Below, one piece after another: positions 45,666 to 64,000 of a stretch of 64,000 nt of DNA (position 1 is its first letter; every line of letters begins with the position of its first letter). Source of the stretch: Ruminococcus sp. (GTDB lineage: Bacteria; Bacillota; Clostridia; Lachnospirales; Lachnospiraceae); assembly GCA_013911065.1 (NCBI GenBank), contig JACERV010000007.1, positions 62,001 through 126,000 on the forward strand, in the 5' to 3' direction. A program made the translations under genes and the position numbers. The notes under the pieces were generated by a model. It was not told the origin of the DNA, did no database searches, and was given only the letters and a program-made list of their open reading frames with translations.

Positions 45666-47219
45666 TTATTCCTGGCTTTCGTCTTCCTGGAACATATTTA
45701 TAAATATTTCTGCAATGTAAGGATCGAATTGAGTCCCTGCACAGCTCCGTATTTCTTCCAATGCCTCGTTGTGGCTTTTTGCTCTTGAATCATCTATGGT
45801 ATTCGTCATACGGTCATAAGCTTCTACCACAGTTATGATACGTGCTTTCAACGGAATCTCTTCTTTACAAAGCCCTTTTGGATAGCCTGAGCCATCCCAC
45901 CTTTCATGATGAGCCAGAACAATTCCTGCCAGCCCTACTGTAGTGTCAAAATAGCTTAGTATCCTGTATCCTACGGCCGGATGCAGTTTCACATCACTTA
46001 TTTCCACAGTATTAAAAGTGCCGTCATTTTGCAGAACATCAGATCCTACCACTGCTTTTCCAATGTCATGCAGGTATGCCGCACTCTTCAGCTTGCTTAT
46101 ATCAGACTGGGACATCTTCATAACCTGCCCAAGCCTCCCGCACATATCTCTTGCCCTTACAGCATGCTGTTTTTCCCAGTCACTTTTCGCAAACAATGCA
46201 TCAAGCATCATTTTTAATTCAAGGCTCTGGGTGTCATTGCGCTCCACAGACTTTATGTTATACATTTTCACTTCCGCATTGCGCAATACCTCAGCGATAT
46301 CTCCGTCACTCTCTGTTTTTGTTGCATGTCCTATGGAAATACTGCACCGGACAGAATGAATCTTTTGTGTGGATAGTTCGCCTTTAATTCTCTTTGCAAT
46401 CTGTTCTGCTTCTTCCCCATCTGTTTTTGGCAGAAGCAGTACAAATTCATCCCCGCCCCACCGTGCAATAATATCACCGTCACGGCTTACCTTCCGCATA
46501 GCCTCAGAAGCCTTTTTCAGCAGCATGTCACCTGAAGCATGTCCGAAAATGTCATTGGCCAGCTTTAAACTGTTCACATCCCCCATAAGAATTGAAATCG
46601 GCAGATGCGCCTTTGTATCCATGTGGTGCATTTTTTCCTCGAAAAAACATCTGTTATAAAGACCAGTCAGGGAATCATGAGAACTGATATATTCAATTTC
46701 CCTCTGACGTTTCTTTTTTCCCGTAACATCCCGGAAAACGAGTACAACACCACCTACTCGCCCTGCGTCGTCCAAAATGGCTGCCCCATTATCTTCCAGA
46801 TGATACTTTTCACCGCCTTTGGAAATCAAAACAACATTGTCCCCAGTTTCCCTTGCCTTTCCCGTTGCAAATATTTTTTCAATGGTATCAGTAACGGTAT
46901 GGCCTTCCTCCTCATGAGATAAAATAAAAACTTCCTTATAATTCATTCCTGCCGCTTCTTCCAGTGTCCATCCAGTCAGTCTGCACGCCACAGGATTCAT
47001 AAACTCAATATCCCTGCCGCTGCCAATCACCATAACCCCGTCCCCTATAGATAAAAGAGTCTGATAATATTTATTACGCTCATAAGTCAGGGTATGTATT
47101 CTTTTCGTTCTATCTGCCAGCAAAAACAACGAAACAATCAAAATACAGGAGATTACAACAATTGTAGAAAACAACATAACATGAAAAGTTTCCATTCCTA
47201 TTGTAATGTTCTTTGCCAT
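45666..47219 (-). CDS. Membrane PAS-GGDEF-HD-GYP cyclic di-GMP protein
   Basis: A 517-residue signalling protein: one transmembrane helix (about 14-36), a PAS domain (about 45-165, MVIGSGRDIEFMNPVACRLTGW), a GGDEF domain (about 175-330) with intact RWGGDEFVLLLP, and an HD-GYP domain (about 340-510) with HDIGK, HHERWDGSGYPKG and YDRMT. By motif it could both make and degrade cyclic di-GMP. The GGDEF lacks an obvious upstream RxxD inhibitory site. It is the last gene of an operon with an MCP and CheR (26-bp gap), which links it to taxis. GGAGGAG precedes ATG. Confidence 0.93.
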   Translation of the reverse strand: MAKNITIGMETFHVMLFSTIVVISCILIVSLFLLADRTKRIHTLTYERNKYYQTLLSIGDGVMVIGSGRDIEFMNPVACRLTGWTLEEAAGMNYKEVFILSHEEEGHTVTDTIEKIFATGKARETGDNVVLISKGGEKYHLEDNGAAILDDAGRVGGVVLVFRDVTGKKKRQREIEYISSHDSLTGLYNRCFFEEKMHHMDTKAHLPISILMGDVNSLKLANDIFGHASGDMLLKKASEAMRKVSRDGDIIARWGGDEFVLLLPKTDGEEAEQIAKRIKGELSTQKIHSVRCSISIGHATKTESDGDIAEVLRNAEVKMYNIKSVERNDTQSLELKMMLDALFAKSDWEKQHAVRARDMCGRLGQVMKMSQSDISKLKSAAYLHDIGKAVVGSDVLQNDGTFNTVEISDVKLHPAVGYRILSYFDTTVGLAGIVLAHHERWDGSGYPKGLCKEEIPLKARIITVVEAYDRMTNTIDDSRAKSHNEALEEIRSCAGTQFDPYIAEIFINMFQEDESQE

Positions 47220-49929: not shown

Positions 49930-50307
49930 TTATTTGGATTTCCACAGGCTATGTAGGTTGCAGTATGCAAGTGCACCGATAACTTCATCTCCATCTGTAA
50001 GAGCAAATTCTGCCTTAGGTTCATCCCCAGGATTCAATTCTTTACGCTGCATTCCTTCTTTCGTACTGAGAACAATCCATTCAATATAATGCTCTTCTGC
50101 CATAGGATGTGGTACGGAACCTACTTCCACAGTAACTATATTTCCGTCTACACTGACTACAGGAACATGCTTCTCTGCTGCTGCATCTACACTTCCAGGT
50201 ACAATCTCTTTCATAGGTTGTCCGCAGCATATTGTCGGTACTCCAGTATCTTTTACCATAGCAATTATTTTTCCGCAAATCTCACAGCTATAAAATTTTA
50301 ATTCCAT
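49930..50307 (-). CDS. dfx: Desulfoferrodoxin (superoxide reductase, 2Fe type)
   Basis: A 125-residue non-haem iron protein of anaerobes that reduces superoxide to peroxide. The N-terminal desulforedoxin centre has Cys8, Cys11, Cys27 and Cys28 (CEIC, CC). The catalytic centre uses EKHVPV (Glu45, His47), HPM...HYIEW (His67, His73) and AYCNLH (Cys116, His119). All ligands are present. ATG 50307 after AAAGGAG is preferred over the track start. It follows csrA but has its own promoter overlapping the csrA stop. Confidence 0.95.
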   Translation of the reverse strand: MELKFYSCEICGKIIAMVKDTGVPTICCGQPMKEIVPGSVDAAAEKHVPVVSVDGNIVTVEVGSVPHPMAEEHYIEWIVLSTKEGMQRKELNPGDEPKAEFALTDGDEVIGALAYCNLHSLWKSK

Positions 50308-50344
50308 AAACTTACACTCCTTTGCCATATTTTAGTTTTAAGTT

Positions 50345-50603: not shown

Positions 50604-51041
50604 TTAATCCCCCTTCTTCTGGAATTCGCTCAGAGCATGACGCATACGGTATTCCTCAGATGCAAGTATTACCTGCACTGCCTGCCTGCTCTCTGTATTA
50701 ACTACAATGGGGCATTTCAAATTCACTGTGCTTTTTTCCGATAATGTCCCAATAACACAGATTACATAAAATGAGAGCACTCCGGCATCCTCAGTCCCCA
50801 AATTCTTATAGTCTGCCAAAGATAATTCAGGTCGATAATCTTCCTTCAAGTAAAAGGGATTCATGATAATAAATGACAAATCAGTATTCTCAGTACTTTG
50901 AAGGCAGAGGACAGCATCACTATCCTCCTCAACAGGAAGAGGAAGAAATGTCTTATATTCCTCAAACCCAAACAGCCCCTCCTGGAAATGGATTAGTTCC
51001 TCTTCCATAAACAGACTGGAATTTATCACTTCTTTTTTCAT
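50604..51041 (-). CDS. fliW: Flagellar assembly factor FliW
   Basis: A 145-residue protein that binds flagellin and, when free, sequesters CsrA, so that flagellin synthesis follows export. The start and HFQEGLFGFEEYKTFLPLP, then FIIMNPFYLKEDY and NLKCPIVVN, are family blocks. It is placed directly before csrA, as in Bacillus. CCGGAGG precedes the ATG. Confidence 0.96.
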   Translation of the reverse strand: MKKEVINSSLFMEEELIHFQEGLFGFEEYKTFLPLPVEEDSDAVLCLQSTENTDLSFIIMNPFYLKEDYRPELSLADYKNLGTEDAGVLSFYVICVIGTLSEKSTVNLKCPIVVNTESRQAVQVILASEEYRMRHALSEFQKKGD

Positions 51042-51064: not shown

Positions 51065-51682
51065 CTATGCCATAACGTCAATGTTCTCTCCCGTAAATCT
51101 TGCACCGGCACTCGGGGGTACATAGATAGGACTGCCTATATATTCAATAGACACATCCGGATACTGTAAAATTGACAGCTCAATGCTTCCAGGTATAAAC
51201 TCTACCTTTCCCCAGTCTATTTTGGCATCAAAATTTAATCTATCCATCTGATAATTAATCGATATAGACGGAGGATCCCATTCAATATTTGCTCCCGTCT
51301 TGGGTATAAATCCCAGCTCAAATTCACCGGTGGCCGGAGCATTTCTCTGATCAAATATATATTGAAGGGCTTCTGCACCCTGCCCTATTTTTGCTTTCAA
51401 TAAAAGCTGTCCCTCCTTGGCAAATTGAGCTGTCGCCTCATACGTAGCCTGTGTTCCCTTCTGCGCTGCCTGATAAATTGCATTCTTCGTAGTAGGAACT
51501 ACAGAGTTTCTGGCCTCGTATGTATCCAGCCTGAGACGGATGGGACTGCTCTTAATTCTCAGTCCTCCTTCATCACGGCTGATTTCCAGTCTTGCTATAC
51601 CACCTCTGCGCTCCAGACGGGCATTATTTACTTTTAGCTGATACTCAATAGGTACATTTGTTATTTTAAGTAGTTGTTCCAT
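51065..51682 (-). CDS. DUF6470 / YviE-like protein
   Basis: A 205-residue protein related to Bacillus YviE, found between flgL and fliW there as here. It begins LLKITNVPIEYQLKVNNARLE and contains IKSSPIRLRLDTYEARNS and INYQMDRLNFDAKIDWGKVEFIPG. No signal peptide or membrane helix. Function is unknown; conserved position suggests a link with hook-filament junction assembly or FliW-CsrA control. Confidence 0.82.
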   Translation of the reverse strand: MEQLLKITNVPIEYQLKVNNARLERRGGIARLEISRDEGGLRIKSSPIRLRLDTYEARNSVVPTTKNAIYQAAQKGTQATYEATAQFAKEGQLLLKAKIGQGAEALQYIFDQRNAPATGEFELGFIPKTGANIEWDPPSISINYQMDRLNFDAKIDWGKVEFIPGSIELSILQYPDVSIEYIGSPIYVPPSAGARFTGENIDVMA

Positions 51683-59003: not shown

Positions 59004-61436
59004 TTATGAACTAAACATAGACATCAAATAGCTGCTCTGTGAATTCATCTGAGATATCAGCGTCTCTAATGCGGTAAACTGTGAAACATATCTGTCTTGT
59101 TCCATTGCCAGTTTATCTTTCAGTCTGTCAATATAATCATTGATGCCATCTATCTGCTTCTGTATGCCATTTTGCAGCACTGATGTGGGGGCATAAGGAG
59201 AACCTGCACGTTCTACTAATATTCCCTTTGTGGCACCCATCATAGATGCATAGCGGTCCATAATTGTCTTCATAGATGTCATCAGGCCGCCTGGATTGGT
59301 TGTTCCATCTTCATTCTTTGACGAAGCGGCGGTAAATGCATCTTTCACTGCATCCGGATCTTTCTCAAGAGCAGCTTTAAACTCTGTCTCATTAAACACA
59401 AGCTTTCCATTGTCCGCATAGTTTGTAGACACCGTAATCCCCATCTTTTCAAATTCGGTTCTGAGATTACTTGGAATGATAAAACGAAGGCTATCCGCCA
59501 ATCCCCTCACATCTGTATCATTGAAGAGAAGTCCCTTCTTAGCCTCTGTCTCCCATTTTTCAATCTGGCTTTCGGACATTTCTTCCCGCTGTTCATCTGT
59601 AAGCGGACTGTAAGCCCTGTCAGGCTTCTGATTTACTTCACCGTTAATCAGAGCAAGTGTCTCATTGTAAGCATTAACCATTTCCTTGACAATGGCAGCC
59701 GTAGCATCCGTATCCACCTTAGCATCAAATGTGACTGCTTCAGTTCCTGCTACATAGTTACCGGTACTGTCATATCCAAAGGTATTCTTTACGGTGATAT
59801 TCATACCGTCAATTGACACTGTGTTGCTCCCCCGCGTAACTTCCGTTTCCATATCGGAACCGGCATATTTTACACGGATCACTGCATCCTGTCCTTTTAC
59901 TTCCTTACCCGCGATGTCCGCTCCAAATAATACATCGGCCAGCTCACCTGATAAATTAATCGTTCCGCTCGCTCCCTGTTCTGTGGACTGTATCACAAAT
60001 TTATCCGAGTTGGACTGGTAAGAAACTGTGATTCCAAGCTCTTTTGTATTGTTAATGGCACTGAGAATATCACTGATGGAACTATCCCATGACAACGCGT
60101 TGCCTTTTGAATCCTTCAGGGTTATCAAATCTCCGTCTCCATTTTTTATTGTCATCGGCTCTCCGGTATCTAGTACTTTACCTGGATTTAAGCCAGATTC
60201 CGCAATTTTAGCCGAAAGGTTCAAGCGGTTGGATTCTCCGCTCTTAATACCGAATACACTGTTAGATCCCAAAATCCCCCGGTCTGCTGCAGTGATAGCC
60301 ACAGTAGAGCTTCCATCCGGGTTCCCGTCGGGTGTTATAGTAGTGAAATTCAGAGATGCCTTGGACAAATCGCCGTCCGATGAGGGACCAAGCTTTACCG
60401 AAACCCTGTTCTTCCCGAACGCCTCATCCAGCTTTGTCTGAATATCCTTTTGAACAGATTCCAGGGTAGAATACGTCCCAGGATCCTCAGCATACTCTTC
60501 CAGCTTAATCCACTTCGTAGTTCCATTATAAGAAAAACTGATTTCTTTGCCGCTTAACGCTTCTCTAAGTGAAACGCTTTCTGTAAGCTGTGCCTCATTT
60601 TTCGCAGTCCGGCCTTCACTTGTAATTACTGTATCTGCCGCAGGCATATCTCCAAATTTCTCGTCTTTATTTAAAAATCCCAGGTCTGCCAGAAGATCCC
60701 CCGTGCTTCCTGAAAGCAACAATGAGTTTCCTGTTGTCGTATCTTTGTTAACAAATTTTATCTTTCCGCCATCTGTTTCTACATTCATCACATCGGCCAG
60801 CGTCTTGCCTGATCCAATCGACACGTTTGCTAATGCCTTGTTCATAGACTCTGCGGTTTTATCCACATCGCTGTAATCATAGCTGCTGCTCATTGTCACT
60901 GAATAGGTCTTAGTTCCATAGGTGATGAACAGAGACTCACCTGATACAGCGTCTATGTCCACCATTTCTCCTAAATCACTGGCAATATCGCCTGTATTTA
61001 ACTTTTGATCAGAAACCGTACCGCCGGATGATATCTGTGCATTCTTTGCAAGACTCTTCACCCCCAGGACGGAAATAGTATCTGCCGAAACCCCGCTTCC
61101 GCTTACGGACAAATATTTACTGTTCTCTCCAAGTGCCGTTATCAGATTCCTGGAAAACAGCTTACTTGAACTTAGATTTGACGAAGATGAGTAAGACATA
61201 TATTTGTTAGAGAACTCATACAGCTTACTTGTAATATTCTGTATTGCACTCTGCTGCCACTGGAAAGTCTGCAATTTCTGCTTCTGCGCCGCAATCTTGC
61301 TTCTAGTGGCATATGTCATATTCTTAATCAGCTCGTCCCGGTCAAGTCCGCTGGCTAATCCGCCATACCCTCTAATTGAGTTTGCTGAATTCATTCCGGA
61401 TGATGTAGTACCACTTAATCCATTAATCGATGCCAT
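59004..61436 (-). CDS. fliD: Flagellar filament cap protein
   Basis: An 810-residue cap protein that promotes flagellin polymerisation at the tip. The N-terminal GYGGLASGLDRDELIKNMTYATRSKI and the C-terminal coiled coil (QKQIDGINDYIDRLKDKLAMEQDRYVSQFTALETLISQMNSQSSYLMSMF) are typical. It is longer than the 450-700 usual, with an enlarged exposed middle region. The track start is a GTG at 61445 too close to AAGGAG; ATG 61436, eight bases after it, is preferred. A sigma-28 promoter precedes it. Confidence 0.94.
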   Translation of the reverse strand: MASINGLSGTTSSGMNSANSIRGYGGLASGLDRDELIKNMTYATRSKIAAQKQKLQTFQWQQSAIQNITSKLYEFSNKYMSYSSSSNLSSSKLFSRNLITALGENSKYLSVSGSGVSADTISVLGVKSLAKNAQISSGGTVSDQKLNTGDIASDLGEMVDIDAVSGESLFITYGTKTYSVTMSSSYDYSDVDKTAESMNKALANVSIGSGKTLADVMNVETDGGKIKFVNKDTTTGNSLLLSGSTGDLLADLGFLNKDEKFGDMPAADTVITSEGRTAKNEAQLTESVSLREALSGKEISFSYNGTTKWIKLEEYAEDPGTYSTLESVQKDIQTKLDEAFGKNRVSVKLGPSSDGDLSKASLNFTTITPDGNPDGSSTVAITAADRGILGSNSVFGIKSGESNRLNLSAKIAESGLNPGKVLDTGEPMTIKNGDGDLITLKDSKGNALSWDSSISDILSAINNTKELGITVSYQSNSDKFVIQSTEQGASGTINLSGELADVLFGADIAGKEVKGQDAVIRVKYAGSDMETEVTRGSNTVSIDGMNITVKNTFGYDSTGNYVAGTEAVTFDAKVDTDATAAIVKEMVNAYNETLALINGEVNQKPDRAYSPLTDEQREEMSESQIEKWETEAKKGLLFNDTDVRGLADSLRFIIPSNLRTEFEKMGITVSTNYADNGKLVFNETEFKAALEKDPDAVKDAFTAASSKNEDGTTNPGGLMTSMKTIMDRYASMMGATKGILVERAGSPYAPTSVLQNGIQKQIDGINDYIDRLKDKLAMEQDRYVSQFTALETLISQMNSQSSYLMSMFSS

Positions 61437-61484
61437 AGTATCCACTCCTTATTCTATAAAAATTCTTTATTTGCTCATAACTGA

Positions 61485-61522: not shown

Positions 61523-62275
61523 TTAATCTCTGTTATGGTGCGGAGTTTCGTTCACCCGGATACAGGCTTTTGTAATTTCAACAGTAATCTGGCCTGCATA
61601 TTTATTAGAATAAAAATTAATAAGGGGAGAAACTGTCTCCTTATTTACCACCACATACTTTGACGGAAGCTTTGTGAGTGCCAGTGCCATTACATCTGCT
61701 TTGCAGTGTGAACATGTACACACCCCAAATTGCTCCATATAATTGACTACCTTTTCCGCAACCAGCCGTTCCATGACATTTACAAACGCAAAACTTTCTT
61801 CAAATTCTTCGTTGTCGCACTCTTCCTGAGTTTTTTCTACATCTTTCTGCACAGGCTCTCTCTGAGACTTTCCGGTTTTTTCTTCTTTCTGCTTTTGTCC
61901 GGCTTCCTCCGGTGTTTCCTTGTCCGGCTCCGGCTGGTTCTCCTCTTCCAGTTCTGCCCCGGACATCTCCATTTTGTCTTCTTCCGGTTCTGCCCCGGAC
62001 ATCTCCATTTTGTCTTCTTCCGGTTCCGGCCCGGATTCTTCTGTCTTTTCTTCTTTGGGACTGCCTGCTTCACTCTCCATCTCTGTTTCCAAAGACTTCC
62101 TTATTGTATCAGCCAACTGTGCCTCTTCATCCACCGTATCAATCACGGAAACTGAACTTTCCGGATCCACCGGGGGGTGAGGGCTTGTGTCCTGCACCTT
62201 TTTACTTTCTTTCTTCTCTTCGCTGCCTGACAGCAGATTCAGTACATGATTCGTCTTATTTGTTCTTTTTGCCAT
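61523..62275 (-). CDS. ComFB-domain protein with acidic repeat linker
   Basis: A 250-residue protein. A short basic start is followed by an acidic, probably disordered region (about 20-160) holding a twice-repeated EPEEDKMEMSGA unit. The last 90 residues are a ComFB domain: ERLVAEKVVNYMEQFGVC, CSHCKADVMALALTKLPSKYVV. The CxxC and the DVMALAL helix are the conserved core. ComFB proteins of Bacillus and cyanobacteria have been reported as cyclic dinucleotide receptors, so this may link second messengers to motility. It is 15 bp after parA. GGAGG precedes the ATG. Confidence 0.8.
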   Translation of the reverse strand: MAKRTNKTNHVLNLLSGSEEKKESKKVQDTSPHPPVDPESSVSVIDTVDEEAQLADTIRKSLETEMESEAGSPKEEKTEESGPEPEEDKMEMSGAEPEEDKMEMSGAELEEENQPEPDKETPEEAGQKQKEEKTGKSQREPVQKDVEKTQEECDNEEFEESFAFVNVMERLVAEKVVNYMEQFGVCTCSHCKADVMALALTKLPSKYVVVNKETVSPLINFYSNKYAGQITVEITKACIRVNETPHHNRD

Positions 62276-62290
62276 CTTTGTAGTTCCCTC

Positions 62291-63064
62291 CTACGCACCT
62301 TTACTCATATTCTGAACTGCTTCCTTTACAAATTCCCTGTAATCTATAGTGGGGTTTGCTCTTGGAGCATAATCAAAAATGCTTAGCCCATGCGCCGGTG
62401 CCTCAGCAGCAGCAACTCCATTACGAATCTTTGTATCAAAGACTTTTGTTCCTATTTGGGACGCCACAGTCTCAGCCATCTCCAGCACTTCTCTTGACAG
62501 TTTCGTCCTCTTATTATATTTCGTCATAAGGATACCCAGCACATTCAAGCTTGGGTTCATGGTCGTCTGTACCCCCTCAATGGTCTCTTTAAGCTGAATG
62601 AGTCCTACAAGGCTCAATATCTCAGCCGCCATCGGTATGACAAGATAATCCGCGGCTATGTATCCATTTACAGTTAATATGTTTAATGCAGGAGGAGTAT
62701 CAATAACAATATAGTCATAATCATTGCTGACCTCATGAAGTATATTCTTGAGCTGAACTTGTCTGTCACTGCCTGTAAGAAGCAGCTCTGCTTCACTCAA
62801 CAGAATGTTGGAAGTCAGAATATCCACGTAATCTTCCGTGTGACGGATTGCATCTTTGACTGATATTTCTCCTTTCAGCACCTCATATACCGTATGTCCC
62901 TTTTCAATATCCAGTCCAAGACTAAAACCCAGATTTCCCTGAGAATCTAAATCTACAGCTAAGACTTTATAACCTGCCTGATGCAGACCTACTGCAAGGG
63001 CCGCAGAAGAAGTTGTCTTTCCGACGCCTCCCTTTTGATTTGTCAATACAATTGTTACTGCCAC
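62291..63064 (-). CDS. ParA/Soj-family ATPase, motility-associated
   Basis: A 257-residue deviant Walker ATPase: KGGVGKTTSSAALAVGL (Walker A' with the signature lysine), VDLDSQGNLG, and VIDTPPALNILTVNGY. These proteins position chromosomes, chemoreceptors or flagella. There is no parB beside it and no parS-like site noted; neighbours are EAL-HDOD and ComFB proteins. FlhG/MinD-type regulators lack this overall Soj pattern, so a cargo-positioning role is inferred. The start is GTG 63064, seven bases after GGAGG. Confidence 0.88.
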   Translation of the reverse strand: MAVTIVLTNQKGGVGKTTSSAALAVGLHQAGYKVLAVDLDSQGNLGFSLGLDIEKGHTVYEVLKGEISVKDAIRHTEDYVDILTSNILLSEAELLLTGSDRQVQLKNILHEVSNDYDYIVIDTPPALNILTVNGYIAADYLVIPMAAEILSLVGLIQLKETIEGVQTTMNPSLNVLGILMTKYNKRTKLSREVLEMAETVASQIGTKVFDTKIRNGVAAAEAPAHGLSIFDYAPRANPTIDYREFVKEAVQNMSKGA

Positions 63065-63088
63065 TTTAATACCTCCACATTATCATGC

Positions 63089-63115
63089 CTTATTGAACAT
63101 TCCTCTTTCAATAAG
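63089..63115 (-). repeat. Leader hairpin CTTATTGA, second copy
   Basis: CTTATTGA pairs with TCAATAAG across an 11-base loop between the EAL-HDOD stop and the parA ribosome site. The outer bases match the 16220-16246 hairpin, also just upstream of a ribosome site. Confidence 0.45.
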
Positions 63116-63125
63116 TATACCTTCT

Positions 63126-64000
63126 CTATCTTAATATATCTTCCAAATGCTCTGCACTGTCACTTCTTTCAGAAAACAGAGGTTTTTCCCCTTTTCTTAC
63201 ATATTCTGTCGTCAGAGTATTCCAGATTGAATTTACATTTTCCACGCAGTCAATATAAATCTGTGCAAGAAGATATGTGGGAACCCCCAGTTCCTCCGAT
63301 AAAGATTTACTTTCTTTCCAGTCCGCTTTCTCATAAGCCAGAATCAGCTTATAAACACTTCCTGCAACTCCTTCCCCGCTTATAAGAGCGGCTTTCGCAG
63401 CCGGATTCAATGGAATCCTTTCCAAAATCTCTTCCATTGTAGCTTCTACCATGTATTCTATTGTAGAAAACATTCCCATCATATAGGCTTCATTATTTGT
63501 AACCGGACAGTCCTTCACATAGTTTACAAGCTCAGAAGCAAACTTTGCTCTCAAAAATGAAATCTTCAGAAGCTCCTCTGCAGCCGGGTCTCCTGCGTCC
63601 TGCCTGAAACTCAGCATATATACCCATTGCCTGAGTTGTCCGATTCCCAGTGTAACCAGTGCCTGCCGTATAGAAGATGTCCTTCTCCTAAGTGCAAAAT
63701 ATGCAGAGTTAACCAGCTTTAAAAGAGTGAATGTTAATCCTGCATCCCGACTGATAATCCGCTCTATTTCAGCAATATCAGGCTCTGGTTTTGACACCTC
63801 AACGAGAAGCTGAAAAAAGTTCCCTTTCATGTATGTCACTTGATCTACTTTTGTGACAAGGGTACTCGCTATATAATCCCCTTCCAGGTAATCCACACCC
63901 AAATCAACAGCATAATCATAGATTTCTTTAGAATCAATATTCGTGGCAATACATTTCTTATCAATGCCTTTGGCCATGCTTATGATATTTTTTAAGGTAT
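63126..64000 (-). CDS. EAL-HDOD (YuxH-like) signalling protein, 5' end beyond window
   Basis: The track starts at 63977, but the frame is open to the right edge and the extra codons read TLKNIIS, which continues the fold, so the gene is incomplete. The visible start (KCIATNIDSKEIYDYAVDLGVDYLEG) is the end of an EAL domain, where the usual AENVE is ATNID; loss of that glutamate suggests no phosphodiesterase activity. The HDOD domain (from about LVEVSKPEPDIAEIERIISRD) has ILKLVNSAYF-like and IRQALVTLGIGQLRQWV motifs. The family is a probable cyclic di-GMP sensor or scaffold. It heads the parA-comFB cluster. Confidence 0.85.
   Translation of the reverse strand, partial: TLKNIISMAKGIDKKCIATNIDSKEIYDYAVDLGVDYLEGDYIASTLVTKVDQVTYMKGNFFQLLVEVSKPEPDIAEIERIISRDAGLTFTLLKLVNSAYFALRRRTSSIRQALVTLGIGQLRQWVYMLSFRQDAGDPAAEELLKISFLRAKFASELVNYVKDCPVTNNEAYMMGMFSTIEYMVEATMEEILERIPLNPAAKAALISGEGVAGSVYKLILAYEKADWKESKSLSEELGVPTYLLAQIYIDCVENVNSIWNTLTTEYVRKGEKPLFSERSDSAEHLEDILR

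Follow-up and report, generated by a model that had tools for sequence, protein, structure and literature searches.

ATPases of the ParA/MinD family bind their partners through positively charged, disordered N-termini of the latter (PMC10241942). In the case of ParB, the activity of single peptides falls far short of that of the paired tags in the dimer, and the ParB peptide is held by a loop (L150-L155) of M. xanthus ParA (PMC12462528). Many ParA ATPases have been called orphans, as their partners are unidentified (PMC10241942). ComFB, on the other hand, is an obligate dimer (PMC4381287), and cyanobacterial members of its family bind c-di-AMP and c-di-GMP (PMC12313861, PMC13075795). The locus described here combines a ParA-type ATPase with a ComFB protein.

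The ParA-ComFB gene pair and its flagellar surroundings

The window, which is the whole stretch of 64,000 nucleotides that was analysed, ended within a flagellar and chemotaxis cluster of a Lachnospiraceae-type genome. On the minus strand the order was fliM ... fliP-fliQ-fliR-flhB-flhA-fliA-flgG-flgG-cheC-cheD-cheV-EAL/HDOD-parA-comFB-fliD-fliS, several of these names being assigned by sequence recognition. The best named relative was Faecalicatena contorta, with 95% identity in the EAL-HDOD protein and 93% in ParA. The initial annotation had placed a tandem of three genes here (EAL-HDOD, ParA and ComFB), and all three were found on the minus strand (Table 1). The EAL-HDOD gene was cut by the end of the window; it runs 445 bases further, and the full gene encodes 439 aa (L002:6445-5126). 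From the overlap between the parA stop codon and the ribosome-binding site, translation of parA and comFB is likely to be coupled.

Table 1. Positions of the pair, its parts and its neighbours in the window
Feature	Position	Strand	Remarks
ParA-type ATPase	62291..63064	-	257 aa; GTG start; Pfam AAA_31, 175.7 bits; without N-terminal HTH
Long ComFB protein	61523..62275	-	250 aa; tag at the N-terminus, followed by helix motif, acidic linker and ComFB domain
Proposed ParA-docking tag, residues 1-17 MAKRTNKTNHVLNLLSG	62225..62275	-	Conservation and co-loss with ParA
Second conserved element, residues 42-67 VSVIDTVDEEAQLADTIRKSLETEME	62075..62152	-	Helix predicted for 48-70; also retained in homologues lacking ParA
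Hypervariable acidic linker of the ComFB protein	61796..62074	-	Tandem EEDKMEMSGAE copies
ComFB domain, residues 165-245	61541..61783	-	Pfam ComFB, 64.8 bits; dimer-interface and zinc residues
parA/comFB junction	62276..62293	-	ParA TAG stop runs into GGAGGG ribosome-binding site, TAGGAGGGAACTACAAAG-ATG
Degenerate EAL-HDOD, C-terminal part	63126..64000	-	Loosely associated neighbour, outside the core pair
fliD	59004..61445	-	Invariable neighbour at the opposite flank; shown as context, outside the pair

The genes for FliW (50604-51041) and a PAS-GGDEF-HD protein (45666-47219) lay in the same window. Support for the local control circuit that had been proposed with this GGDEF-HD protein and FliW-CsrA was limited to the shared region. 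A desulfoferrodoxin gene (49930-50328) was located between fliW and the cheR/chemoreceptor genes. A gene for a DUF6470 protein (51065-51682), a family name to which no function is assigned, was located between an FlgL-like gene and fliW.

Synteny was read by BLAST against this flagellar cluster in three sets: 18 regions selected from related genomes for their long ComFB, 14 additional regions, and 80 named loci. In each of the 78 named loci whose flank was long enough, parA directly preceded the long comFB gene in the same orientation; L128 and L155 were left out because their contigs end just upstream. The distance from the parA stop to the comFB start in the related loci was mostly -20 to +50 bases. 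This conservation of order far exceeds chance. The orientation of the pair relative to fliD and to cheV/EAL-HDOD flipped as a block, being co-oriented or divergent depending on the genome. The fliD gene was a constant neighbour in the surveyed loci. Linkage to flagellar genes was conserved, in support of the initial annotation.

In many loci the EAL-HDOD gene lay on the other strand or had no counterpart, and the Enterocloster/symbiosum-like loci showed none between cheV and the pair. Because the pair stayed together while orientations flipped, and EAL-HDOD was inverted or absent, we regarded parA-comFB as the conserved module and EAL-HDOD as a frequent neighbour. The trio was therefore rejected as the unit. 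The EAL domain was degenerate, as annotated. In 46 homologues GYELxFQ, VIQIED, NDFQF and CIATGVN replaced the canonical motifs EAL, EITE, DDFGTG and AEGVE. The EAL-HDOD protein may be an accessory regulator.

The two proteins of the pair

The assignment of the ATPase to the ParA type was borne out by its AAA_31 score and its deviant Walker A motif, KGGVGKT. K11, K16 and D40, which include the signature lysine and the catalytic aspartate, were invariant in 95 ParA sequences, and so were the class-specific residues N128, Y135, M145, I149 and S151. N128 falls in the loop PPALNILTV, which corresponds to the M. xanthus pocket loop (L150-L155) when the two are matched by sequence alignment and offset rather than structurally.

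The nearest solved structures were ParA/Soj proteins, such as Thermus Soj (1wcv). A chromosomal Soj or a mobile-element ParA was rejected as the identity of this ATPase. The nearest paralogue in the genome, located beside a ParB-like gene, was only 40% identical, and a clear gap in score (at least 233 bits versus at most 176 bits) separated the class. A disguised FlhG was also rejected, as the solved relatives were of the Soj type and the N-terminus lacked DQAxxLR.

Surface arginines serve non-specific DNA binding in ParA proteins, namely R189 and R218 in B. subtilis Soj and R238 in M. xanthus. The equivalent of R189 (R186) was kept in 90 of the 95 ParAs. The equivalent of R218 was A, S or T, and a new arginine nearby, R214, was present in 93 of the 95. 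Nucleoid binding is thus uncertain, since one DNA-binding arginine was kept and one replaced, and we consider it plausible.

The long ComFB protein consisted of four regions: the N-terminal peptide, a conserved stretch (residues 42-70), a variable linker and the ComFB domain. Its total length varied among relatives from 154 to 480 aa, and the linker was extremely variable. The domain score was well above the curated Pfam cut-off (PF10719, 25 bits). With the dimer and zinc residues mapped from B. subtilis ComFB, N166, D194 and Y207 of the dimer interface were invariant and E169 was conserved in most. C186, C188, C191 and H247 were invariant at the zinc positions; H247, just past the domain edge, is probably a zinc ligand.

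The AlphaFold model of the protein alone gave pLDDT values of 93-98 for the domain, about 80 for helix 48-70, and about 60 for a helix in the tag (residues 8-15). Foldseek with the domain matched B. subtilis ComFB (4wai, E 2.7e-4) and the Synechocystis c-di-GMP receptor CdgR (8hja, E 1.1e-3), and found no other significant match. The annotated ComFB domain was upheld. A domain search of the protein returned only ComFB, and no ParB, CheW, MCP or chemoreceptor domain.

In the acidic linker (61796-62074) the tandem EEDKMEMSGAE units were near-identical, and the length of the linker is probably prone to change. At L215:7128-8390 the linker of a long ComFB carried repeated MSDDAIAALFAQNSSEQTQ units that resembled multiple copies of the 42-70 helix motif. 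In two FlhF-containing genomes (L051:6964-7632 and L052:6898-7560) ComFB was fused behind a domain that, judged by sequence appearance, resembles a response-regulator receiver. This fusion may be a phosphorylation-coupled ComFB.

The N-terminal tag, ParA and the distribution of FlhF/FlhG

The N-terminal peptide of the ParA-adjacent long ComFBs had the consensus MARKTNKTxHVLNLLSG. In a family survey by the ComFB domain alone, it was present in 19 of 19 ParA-linked first-class long ComFBs, and K7, T8, V11 and L14 of these proteins matched the cysteines of the ComFB domain in their invariance. When 391 genomes of the class were surveyed, only three new long flagellar ComFBs came up, all with ParA and tag. 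Combined, these peptide-blind surveys gave the tag in 22 of 22 proteins with an adjacent ParA of this type. Among ordinary ComFBs (about 90-130 aa), none of the 30 with flanks examined (about 1.5 kb on each side) had this ParA nearby. A peptide pattern scan of 257 Gb of genomes produced 146 matching stretches, of which 128 encoded ComFB relatives. Because the scan itself used tag positions 2-11, part of their conservation in the 80 named loci is built in, and the unbiased evidence is that of the ComFB-domain surveys.

Three genomes (G162, G267 and G293) kept ComFB at the same flagellar site, and both a ParA of this type and the tag were absent. Their ComFBs retained the 42-70 motif and the ComFB domain. 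The best ParA match in these genomes scored at most 172 bits, and every ParA of the pair at least 233. The FliD tree placed them as two separate ParA losses inside the paired lineage. Co-occurrence and co-loss with ParA make a ParA-docking tag the simplest inference for the peptide, and the tag probably binds ParA. The partner of ParA is very probably the adjacent tagged ComFB protein, identified here by the co-lost tag. The 'ParA without ParB' of the initial description thus very probably has a partner, one without a ParB domain.

The layout of the ComFB protein, with a basic/aliphatic disordered N-terminal tag, a linker and a dimeric cargo domain, is the anatomy of a ParA partner. The tag keeps the hydrophobic spacing Vxx(L)(L/I) of the ParB motif (L15, L18 and I19 in M. 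xanthus), and its basic residues lie further upstream than in the canonical motif. Because of this difference in position, homology to the ParB motif is not claimed. An AlphaFold model of ParA and ComFB residues 1-40 in one chain, with the TAG stop read as Gln, contained a single ParA subunit. ParA was well modelled, and the tag (pLDDT 36-41) was not confidently docked. We drew no conclusion from this model, since two ParA subunits are needed to form the binding pocket.

A second ParA-ComFB class was found in G015, G046 and G148, with ParA 47-50% identical. The N-terminal peptide of its ComFB was also conserved but different (KSRxEIDKExMYRKIMPxA). The pair might conceivably be held together by the synteny of one flagellar operon type, with no functional interaction and with the peptide serving something else. 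The lineage is indeed largely one flagellar clade. However, the pair remained intact while flipping relative to both neighbours, the tag and ParA were lost jointly twice, and the second class had its own, equally conserved peptide. We consider this explanation very improbable.

The second-class pair (L057, L058 and L059) adjoined flgM-flgN-flgK-flgL-fliW. Its proximity to the anti-sigma gene flgM would suit a regulatory switch, in which ParA is a nucleotide-dependent regulator of flagellar assembly or expression, in the manner of FleN on FleQ, and ComFB relays a second messenger. In cyanobacteria, transcription factors and the expression of genes are targets of ComFB/CdgR proteins (PMC13075795, PMC12313861). 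But the pair is not accompanied by a DNA-binding domain or a regulator gene, and a layout of tag, linker and dimer is what positioning partners typically show. Such a switch appears quite unlikely.

The distribution of the pair was compared with that of FlhF. Of the 299 family genomes, 156 carried FlhA; the 127 with FlhF were all among these. The pair was present in none of the 127 FlhF-containing genomes versus 22 of the 29 Lachnospiraceae genomes with FlhA and no FlhF. The complementarity was complete, and the Fisher p of 4.7e-21 overstates the independent evidence, as phylogenetic clustering is strong and the pair belongs largely to one flagellar lineage. No FlhF over the cut-off was found in the three further pair genomes from the class survey, and FlhG was absent from all pair genomes examined. 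The seven FlhF-less genomes without the pair were the three with ParA loss, G199 (an incomplete genome with an FlhG fragment), G102 and G174 (with only weak FlhA matches), and G149.

G149 is flagellated without FlhF, FlhG, CheA or the pair. FlhA of the paired lineage (G000:C11:130854-132887) and of other FlhF-less genomes lay at the low end of the scores against the FlhA family model (about 783-815 bits), a hint that the flagellar export proteins here may form a clade of their own.

The chemotaxis genes bear on the cargo. The same ParA and adaptor could position a chemoreceptor array, like PpfA/TlpT and ParC/ParP. The cheC-cheD-cheV genes adjoin the pair, and CheA was present in all 19 first-class pair genomes. 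G162 had lost CheA, the local cheC/D/V, ParA and the tag; this joint loss points to the array and against a flagellar cargo. On the other hand, G267 and G293 kept CheA and lost ParA, and the second-class genomes G015 and G148 hold the pair without CheA. Chemotaxis genes also occur in FlhF-containing relatives that lack the pair (for example genes judged CheA-like by sequence appearance beside flhF-flhG in L179-L182), and neither a CheW nor an MCP domain is present in the ComFB protein. Altogether, an array cargo seems unlikely. The complementarity with FlhF favors the flagellum over the array, as do the position among flagellar genes and the retention of the second-class pair in two genomes that lack CheA.

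Proposed role and comparison with known systems

We propose that ParA and the tagged ComFB form a two-component positioning system, most likely with a flagellar cargo and a role like that of FlhF/FlhG, to which we give a probability of roughly 0.6. ATP-bound ParA dimers would bind a surface, most likely the nucleoid. ComFB would be the adaptor, attached to the cargo by its dimeric C-terminal domain and the 48-70 helix. Its two N-terminal tags, on long flexible linkers, would dock on ParA, where they set off the hydrolysis of ATP and the release of ParA. Such a ParA-driven cycle would give positioning or counting of the cargo. A second messenger might gate cargo binding or tag presentation, a possibility raised by the ComFB fold, which is that of c-di-GMP/c-di-AMP receptors.

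The gene pairing is well supported by these comparisons of sequences, which also establish the joint presence and joint loss of tag and ParA, the ComFB fold and the exclusivity with FlhF; the cargo and the ligand we infer. Taken separately, the chance that the cargo is flagellar is about even, and that of gating of the pair by cyclic dinucleotides is somewhat below that. It is a tentative suggestion that the pair represents a new family of positioning systems, in which the ParA adaptor is a cyclic-dinucleotide receptor, c-di-GMP or c-di-AMP directly sets the placement or number of flagella, and FlhF/FlhG have been replaced in an entire flagellar lineage of gut Clostridia.

The pair would explain how common gut bacteria with flagella (Faecalicatena, Muricomes, Eisenbergiella, Enterocloster and relatives of Dorea) do without FlhF and FlhG. 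If gated by a ligand, it would be a direct chemical link from a second messenger to the spatial organization of a cell machine. The pair is directly testable, and a wider method is suggested, namely to seek N-terminal peptides conserved only beside a ParA.

In the open-licence literature on ParA with ComFB, or on FlhF/FlhG in Lachnospiraceae, we found no description of this flagellar module and no ParA partner built on a ComFB domain. The pair resembles ParAB, McdAB and PomXYZ (PMC10241942) in having a deviant Walker A ParA beside a partner with a basic/aliphatic N-terminal tag, a disordered linker and an oligomeric cargo domain. It differs from them in its partner, whose core is a ComFB domain with the fold of a cyclic-dinucleotide receptor and which contains no ParB domain. 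It is likewise unlike ParABS, as the neighboring partner carries ComFB only.

With FlhF/FlhG the pair shares the flagellar gene cluster, a ParA/MinD-family ATPase and a complementary phyletic distribution. However, there is no FlhF GTPase, and the ATPase is of the ParA type, not the FlhG type, without the DQAxxLR N-terminus. As in PpfA/TlpT and ParC/ParP, a ParA homologue is encoded beside che genes, but the ComFB partner has no chemoreceptor or CheW domain. TipF of Caulobacter is a degenerate EAL protein that binds c-di-GMP and places a flagellum. Unlike this locus, it involves no ParA tag, and the EAL-HDOD protein here is merely a neighbor.

The ComFB/CdgR receptors (PMC12313861; PDB 8hja, 4wai) share the fold, the dimer and the zinc residues. 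Most of these receptors measure about 90-130 aa and lack a neighboring ParA, whereas the protein here has an added N-terminal tag, helix and long linker. By its domains, the pair is a member of the ParA family joined to a member of the ComFB family, distinct from ParABS, FlhF/FlhG and PpfA/TlpT.
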